From Paramecium tetraurelia (taxonomy: Eukaryota > Ciliophora > Oligohymenophorea > Peniculida > Parameciidae), in contig NW_001798955.1 of the NCBI RefSeq assembly GCF_000165425.1, forward strand, positions 496,001-560,000: a stretch of DNA of 64,000 nucleotides. Direction: 5' to 3'. Positions 54,866-56,042 of the stretch are shown piece by piece. The first letter of the stretch is position 1. Every line of letters begins with the position of its first letter. A program made the translations under genes and the position numbers. The notes under the pieces were generated by a model, which saw only the letters and a program-made list of their open reading frames with translations, made no database searches and had not been told where the DNA came from.

Positions 54866-56042
54866 ATGAAATTTTATAATATTAATTATCTTTATATGAT
54901 GCATCTAATATTGATGGTCTTAGCCGTTCTAGGATAGTGTAAATTAAACACAAAACCTCACTAGAATCATTTCGAGAATATATTCTATTATGAAGATGAT
55001 TATTACAAAGTAATGCACAATAAAAGATTAGAATCATCTGCGTGTATCCAAAGTTTATTGGAATGCCAATTTCAATAAGCGTCTAAAAGATGTGGACCCC
55101 AGATATTTATATTACAAGGATGGAGACATCAAAAGATATACAAAATATGATAAAATAGGAAGAGGAGCATTTTCTTAAGTTTTCATAGGACTTCGAGATG
55201 ATGGGGAGGCAGTGGTAATGAAAGAACTAAAACCAATGAAATGGCAGGCAATCAATAGAGAAATTCAAGTGTTGAAAGCTATAAAGGGGACAACAAATAC
55301 ATTGTAGTTGATAGATGCTATTAGAAATCAAAATAAGAAACAGAATGCTACTTTTATTTATTAATATTTAAGTAGTGTGAATTTACTTCACCTATTTGGA
55401 AAACTAGAATTACCAAAGATATAATTATACATGTACTAATTGCTAAAAGTATTTACAACACTTAAAAGGCTCTAAATTAAGTACATAGTAAGGGAGTAAT
55501 GCATAGAGATGTCAAAATGGCGAATATCATTATTAAAGAAGATGATACACTCTACTTAATTGATTGGGGCTTGGGAGAGTTCTACCATCCAAAAAAGAGA
55601 TATAACACTAGAGTAGGAACTCGCTATTACAAAGCTCCAGAATTGTTAGTCAATAATAAACAATACGATTACAGTGTTGATATGTGGGCCTTTGGTTGTA
55701 CATTAGCAAGCATGATATTTCAAAAGTAACCTTTATTCAAAGGCAAAGATGTCTATGAATAACTAGATAAGATTGTTGCAGTTTTGGGAACTGAGGATCT
55801 CCTTAAATATTTGGAAAAGTATGATCTTGTCTACCCTGATCCACCCATGTAAAGATTATATATATATATCTATCAGTCACACTTAACAGCCTTTTACTAT
55901 TTATATAGATCCTGAGAATGCGCATTTAGTTACAAAGGAAGGCTTGGATCTGATAAGCAAATTGTTGATTTATGATCATAAATTAAGACTTACAGCAGAA
56001 GAGGCTATGGCACATTCTTTTTTTGATGGTGTTCGAATGTGA
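54866..56042 (+). CDS. CK2-alpha-like protein kinase with N-terminal secretory leader
   Basis: Introns of 22 nt (55010-55031), 20 nt (55449-55468, ending AAG) and 28 nt (55849-55876) leave 368 residues, or 358 from the second start region at 54896. The kinase domain is intact: IGRGAFSQVFIG, Lys in [17 protein letters not shown], the CK2-specific DWG in [17 protein letters not shown], then [32 protein letters not shown] and [14 protein letters not shown]. Before the CK2-like start ([19 protein letters not shown]) lies a hydrophobic leader ([15 protein letters not shown]) and about 20 acidic or polar residues. CK2 is normally cytosolic and nuclear. The leader suggests an ER or secreted kinase, or a membrane-anchored one. 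Confidence 0.87.

Follow-up and report, generated by a model that had tools for sequence, protein, structure and literature searches.

Protein kinase CK2 normally acts in the cytosol and the nucleus, and how secreted proteins become phosphorylated is best known from animal kinases of the FAM20 type. Fam20 has been reported from organisms ranging from sponge to mammals (PMC7948968). Departures of CK2 from its usual compartments are on record as well. The plastid CK2α of Arabidopsis (AT2G23070, pCKII) is retargeted by an N-terminal peptide, and this transit peptide offers, by analogy, a precedent for N-terminal retargeting of CK2; pCKII goes to the plastid, not to the secretory pathway proposed for the genes described below, and has a reported acidic CK2 motif (PMC4189921). 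In Leishmania, CK2 activity likewise occurs outside the cytosol, as an ecto- or secreted enzyme, and the main text of that paper never mentions a signal peptide or sequence, or the terms non-classical, leaderless or exosome (PMC4450227). Within the open-licence literature we recognized no report of a CK2 with a signal peptide in a ciliate.

The window, by which we mean the whole 64,000-nucleotide stretch that was analyzed (C2:496001-560000 within the 69.07 Mb genome), holds a four-exon gene with a complete CK2-type catalytic domain, read in the ciliate code in which TAA and TAG specify Gln (table 6). This code, introns 20-30 nt long and the presence of a closely related duplicate would be in keeping with Paramecium. 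Once all three introns are removed, no stop interrupts the frame between 54866 and the terminal TGA. The first-pass annotation was right about the first intron, the frame and the position of the stop, all of which the reconstructed gene model bears out; introns 2 and 3, which it did not give, are also needed. A start at 54866 is less likely, as the ohnologous copy on C211 has MHLILMILTILGQC at that place and no ATG. Because the upstream ATG is not conserved, translation more likely begins at ATG 54899 (MHL...) or at 54896 (MMHL...), as judged from the two copies. From ATG 54899 the predicted protein has 357 residues, arranged as a 14-residue leader, 23 mostly polar residues, the CK2-like N-terminal segment NHLRVS and a complete kinase domain. 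A Pfam scan of this protein (E 0.001) returned six kinase-like families, the best being Pkinase at 1.1e-54, and in a PDB search the best 60 of 2375 matches were all CK2 catalytic subunits (top match 1e-80).

Features of the window kinase gene and of the EF-hand gene downstream (window positions)
Feature	Positions	Strand	Remarks
Exon 1	54899..55009	+	leader and start of the mature part; other in-frame ATGs at 54896 and 54866
Hydrophobic leader, predicted short signal peptide	54899..54940	+	10 uncharged residues in a row; Kyte-Doolittle mean up to 3.5 over 8 residues
Intron 1, 22 nt	55010..55031	+	GTAATGCACAATAAAAGATTAG; ohnologue counterpart GTAAACCACAATAAAAGCTTAG
Exon 2	55032..55448	+	N-terminal segment, then kinase N-lobe (GRGAFSQVF; VVMK; INREI)
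Intron 2, 20 nt	55449..55468	+	required by the frame; absent from the first-pass annotation
Exon 3	55469..55848	+	contains the activation segment
Intron 3, 28 nt	55849..55876	+	23 nt in the ohnologue; absent from the first-pass annotation
Exon 4	55877..56042	+	end of C-lobe; stop TGA 56040-56042; C-terminus HSFFDGVRM, with no KDEL-like end
EF-hand protein, 102 residues	57092..57429	+	ATG 57092; own leader MVRRVIVLLLLGIVLG; 29-nt intron

Whether a hydrophobic leader means anything in such a genome depends on how readily one arises. We therefore searched other kinase loci for a hydrophobic, ATG-led stretch reachable either directly or through one intron of 18-35 nt. At least one such stretch was present at 6 of 19 loci, three of these in direct frame, and the same script found one at 2 of the 4 leaderless CK2α loci tried. 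(In the window gene the script missed the real 22-nt intron, since the match from which it worked begins inside that intron; the counts for other loci are unaffected.) With 6 of 19 other kinase loci offering one, a leader taken alone is not beyond chance in this AT-rich genome. Comparison with the ohnologue on C211 (L010) changes the picture. This copy retains exon 1 gap-free from the second ATG onward, and 6 of the 19 substitutions between the two exons alter an amino acid. In the leader frame dN was 0.069 and dS 1.6 (dN/dS 0.043), whereas the other two frames gave dN/dS of 0.62 and 1.78 and hold 1-3 stops each in both copies; random placement of the substitutions produced so few changed codons with p = 0.001 (20,000 draws). 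Exons 2-4 of the pair gave a dN/dS of 0.056. On this comparison exon 1 of the window kinase is coding and conserved, and the hydrophobic leader that had been read in frame with the kinase recurs in the ohnologue under purifying selection in that frame. Set against its ohnologue, the window leader is beyond chance, and what decides the case for it is this conservation together with paralogues that also carry leaders.

These paralogues came from a protein search with the window kinase, repeated with two of its relatives; scoring of the best candidates and manual grouping gave at least 15 CK2-type genes in the genome. Six of them carry a hydrophobic leader and form three ohnologue pairs: the window gene and its C211 ohnologue, C40 and C51, and C156 and C157. 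The leaderless genes found number nine (C2:125844, C211:87092, C181, C166, C165, C135, C211:512653, C128 and C25), their start codons picked by eye. The best 8-residue hydropathy was 2.55-3.50 in the six leader genes versus 0.07-0.98 in the nine others, so that a leader is present in 6/6 of the subfamily and in 0/9 of the other CK2-type genes found. Leader-bearing paralogues, for which the first-pass annotation had suggested a search of other Paramecium genomes, are represented by five further genes, all within this one ciliate genome. In C40, C51, C156 and C157 the hydrophobic N-terminus lies in the open frame of the kinase itself with no intron between them (MNNYFMLFIISIFLLTFG, MQQIFWFLGLLFTIDCQD, MITFFLFLPIQILAFTYE and MILFFLLMPLQIFAFTYQ, respectively). 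For C40, C51 and C157 no other Met intervenes between the upstream stop and the leader Met, which follows that stop by 5, 8 and 16 codons, and in C51 the next Met falls where the kinase domain begins (NMSDY). The open frame of C156 reaches back over 200 codons further and contains additional Mets, and its start was therefore assigned from its likeness to C157. Between C40 and C51 the leader showed no purifying selection (dN 0.67, dS 0.67 over 15 codons); its hydrophobicity persists and its sequence does not. Such behavior is what a signal peptide would display, which is not by itself proof of one. Between the leader and the kinase segment NDLRVS these two proteins (L013 and L014) have a further stretch of about 75 residues with acidic patches, partly conserved between the pair, which is possibly a pro-region or a regulatory part.

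To judge the quality of the window leader we used as a yardstick 12 chosen controls, namely the EF-hand protein listed in the table and 11 cathepsin N-termini of the same genome. The 11 were taken from 15 cathepsin N-termini whose first Met opens a hydrophobic start, among 30 loci scanned; the remaining loci lack a start of this kind, in many cases because there was no gene model. The control leaders have uncharged runs of 12-18 residues and hydropathy of 2.31-3.55. Measured in this way, the window leader is strongly hydrophobic but short, and it has no basic n-region. Its hydrophobic core is followed by polar residues, with small residues near a candidate cleavage site, which by eye could possibly lie after LG or QC. 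Past residue 30, no segment in any of the six leader proteins is hydrophobic enough to span a membrane (highest 19-residue mean, 1.27). No KDEL-like C-terminus was found in any of the six, nor any cysteine pattern hinting at lumenal disulfides (2, 2, 1, 3, 2 and 1 Cys). Within the kinase domain the leader genes have 1, 1, 3, 3, 3 and 3 Asn-X-Ser/Thr sites versus 0-2 in the ten others (two of them partial), counts that are compatible with a lumenal life without proving it.

The shortness of the window run, at only 10 residues, and the missing basic n-region are reasons to consider that the N-terminus is truly hydrophobic but belongs to a cytosolic kinase, as a buried helix or as a weak membrane- or organelle-targeting segment. 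The N-terminal segment of CK2α packs against the catalytic core, which would suit a buried helix. A targeting segment would find its parallel in the Arabidopsis CK2α with its functional plastid transit peptide (PMC4189921). However, the two other pairs have similar N-termini of unrelated sequence, as signal peptides would, and the leader stands apart from the CK2-like N-terminal segment, by 23 mostly polar residues in the window protein (NHLRVS) and by roughly 75 residues in C40/C51 (NDLRVS). Furthermore, no arginine-rich amphipathic pattern was seen. We regard this explanation as unlikely, though less so than the other alternatives.

We then placed the leader genes by means of a tree built on a 293-column alignment of 22 kinase domains. 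Of its rows 16 are CK2-type and six come from CDK, GSK3 and other CMGC kinases, with no DYRK, CLK or SRPK among these. The CK2-type rows stand apart from the other six with support of 100/100. A branch with support of 85/84 unites the nine leaderless genes with human CK2α, and this support rose to 98/98 when three long rows (two outgroup rows and the leaderless C211:512653) were dropped. A weakly supported branch (74/68; 69/66 with the long rows dropped) groups the six leader genes, and the tree program warned that two long branches, one leading to C156/C157 and one to the window pair, meet there. A single origin of the six is likely on these sequences. Since a separate branch unites the leaderless genes and human CK2α, the leader genes lie outside canonical CK2α. 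A residue signature parallels this division: the six read [VM]GTR[YH]Y[KR]APE where the ten others (nine leaderless and human) read VASRYFK[GS]PE.

Residue by residue, with numbering according to human CK2α, the leader genes retain the catalytic machinery of CK2 and have lost much of its basic surface. Lys68, Glu81, Asp156, Asn161 and DWG are present in all six. DWG is typical of CK2; as a separate observation, six of the nine leaderless CK2-type genes (L016, L017 and L019-L022) have DFG. Positions 191, 195 and 198, whose Arg, Arg and Lys we take to form the substrate-binding pocket for an acid at n+1, are R, R and K in the window gene and Arg or Lys across all six leader genes, with Lys at 191 in C156 and Arg at 198 in C40/C51. 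In contrast, the basic cluster of Lys74-77, Lys79, Arg80 and Lys83 has become K-W-Q-A, N, R and Q in the window gene, and all six are without Lys49 and without most of Lys74-77. Loss of the 74-77 cluster is not unique to them, because the leaderless C211:512653, which has L-P-E-K at 74-77 and Arg at 49, also lacks most of it. The genes thus resemble CK2α and α′ (CSNK2A1/A2, CMGC) in their catalytic domain, in DWG and in the RxxxR of the activation segment, and differ from CK2α in the leader, the signature above, the absence of Lys49 and most of Lys74-77, and their position outside its branch. PDB searches with C40 and C156 agree with that made for the window protein, the 60 best of 69 and 86 matches being CK2 catalytic subunits throughout. 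The first-pass annotation had called the window domain plainly CK2-α. The grouping with CK2 at 100/100, the catalytic residues and DWG uphold the lineage, but not the assignment to CK2α proper; we file the window gene as CK2-like because its catalytic residues are those of CK2 while most of the basic cluster is gone and it stands outside the CK2α clade.

The same residues bear on whether the leader proteins, or at least C40 and C51, could be catalytically dead secretory pseudokinases that serve as lumenal binding proteins. The window pair has HRD, but C40/C51 have HLD in its place, and the glycine loop and the basic cluster have changed as well. However, other kinase families include active members that lack the HRD arginine, Lys68, Glu81, Asp156, Asn161 and DWG are intact in 6/6, and dN/dS is 0.056 across exons 2-4 of the window pair; we consider this reading quite improbable. 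Least probable of all, to the point that we give it hardly any weight, is a cytosolic kinase whose translation begins at ATG 54990 and runs through an unspliced intron 1 (MKMIITKQCTIKDQNHLRV...), exon 1 being left untranslated: its frame is open into the kinase and the ohnologue has an ATG one codon further on, but 6 of the 14 residues of the resulting peptide differ between the two copies (MKMIITKQCTIKDQ versus TMTNITKQTTIKAQ), for which reason this start was rejected, the exon-1 leader frame is under strong purifying selection with stops in the alternative frames of both copies, and C40, C51, C156 and C157 have their leaders without any intron. In the spliced frame the leader holds M1 and M6 and the next Met occurs only in the N-lobe (VVMKEL). 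A spliced transcript therefore offers no leaderless product with an intact N-lobe, and the leader is obligatory unless the unspliced 54990 start is used.

We also examined the regulatory subunit. Manual grouping of 27 matches gave 12 CK2β genes in this genome, and none of the 12 has a clear leader. Four have a leaderless start in direct frame, and the intron-joined starts of the others were judged by eye. One pair is ambiguous: L085 and L086 (C109 and C158) have direct-frame starts, MNVYLLLILNSKC and MNVDLLLILNSKC, with hydropathy of 2.39 and 2.11, and an alternative start, MSQS..., joined through a 28-nt intron present in both copies. The hydrophobic start is probably an artifact of this intron and we prefer the MSQS... 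start, codon counts favoring neither. The roughly 12 CK2β genes, spread over C184, C79, C109, C158, C188, C52, C177, C69, C29 and C3, are in themselves a large number of regulatory subunits.

Taken together, we think it probable that the six genes constitute a ciliate subfamily of CK2-like Ser/Thr kinases with a short cleavable signal peptide, which would act either extracellularly or within the lumen of the secretory or lysosomal system. Conserved exon 1 and five leader-bearing relatives sustain this part of the original proposal, that of a CK2-lineage kinase with a signal peptide; the strict CK2-α identity and a link to the EF-hand neighbor were not supported. We propose that the leader directs the kinase into the ER and is then cleaved, after LG or QC, and that the enzyme would be active in the lumen with ATP imported into the ER or Golgi. 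Because the CK2β genes are without a clear leader, the one ambiguous pair aside, the kinase would presumably work as a free catalytic subunit that does not need CK2β. The kinases are probably acidophilic, and the mature enzyme would phosphorylate Ser/Thr beside acidic residues on proteins of the secretory or lysosomal pathway, its substrates being secretory-granule, lysosomal or surface proteins. The choice of acidic sites would be kept through the Arg191/Arg195/Lys198 pocket at n+1, with less need for an acid at n+3; a shifted acidic motif is predicted since the n+1 pocket is kept and most of the Lys74-77 (n+3) cluster is gone.

Acidophilic Ser phosphorylation in the secretory lumen, as proposed here, would liken these enzymes to the Golgi casein kinase FAM20C and other animal secretory-pathway kinases. 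They differ from FAM20C in belonging to another kinase family, and the window protein has no Fam20C domain (Pfam scan, E 0.001). No Fam20C match was found in this genome by a search that lacks a positive control, as 14 control genomes also gave no positive; for this reason the absence of FAM20C is not used as an argument. The wider proposal, that a signal-peptide CK2-type lineage split off before or beside the animal and ciliate CK2αs and supplies FAM20C-independent secretory casein-type kinases with an altered pocket and a different acidic motif, seems to us an evenly balanced one. The CK2-derived leader kinases would be an independent route in a ciliate to chemistry of the FAM20 type, and a kinase type known from the cytosol and nucleus may have a branch working inside the secretory pathway. 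The subfamily would also serve as a natural experiment on what CK2 recognizes, as its members keep the catalytic core but have lost most of the basic cluster that reads acid. Feeding-RNAi and GFP tagging are standard in this type of protist, and the six genes give a concrete entry to the question of how granule, lysosomal or surface proteins are phosphorylated in ciliates.

The EF-hand gene with its own leader is present downstream of the kinase as had been described, with an aldo-keto reductase gene between the two. All three belong to a segment, roughly 17 kb long, that is collinear between this contig and C211, where the reductase and EF-hand genes also follow the ohnologue. As this collinearity reflects duplication, the proximity of the EF-hand gene says nothing on function, and we dropped both the functional link hinted at in the first-pass annotation and the neighbor as evidence for a substrate. 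The EF-hand protein itself is closely similar in the C211 copy and has a Gln-rich C-terminal part.

When viral contigs were scanned with an alignment of the family, no relative emerged. A contig search returned three distant kinase-like loci (L088-L090) at 24-26% identity, in two bacterial metagenome bins, one of Chlamydiae and one of Verrucomicrobiaceae. Lastly, matches to papain-type (cathepsin) proteases lie on the same strand about 0.5-0.7 kb downstream of the leader kinases of C156 and C157 (C156:131180-131759 and C157:348844-349420).
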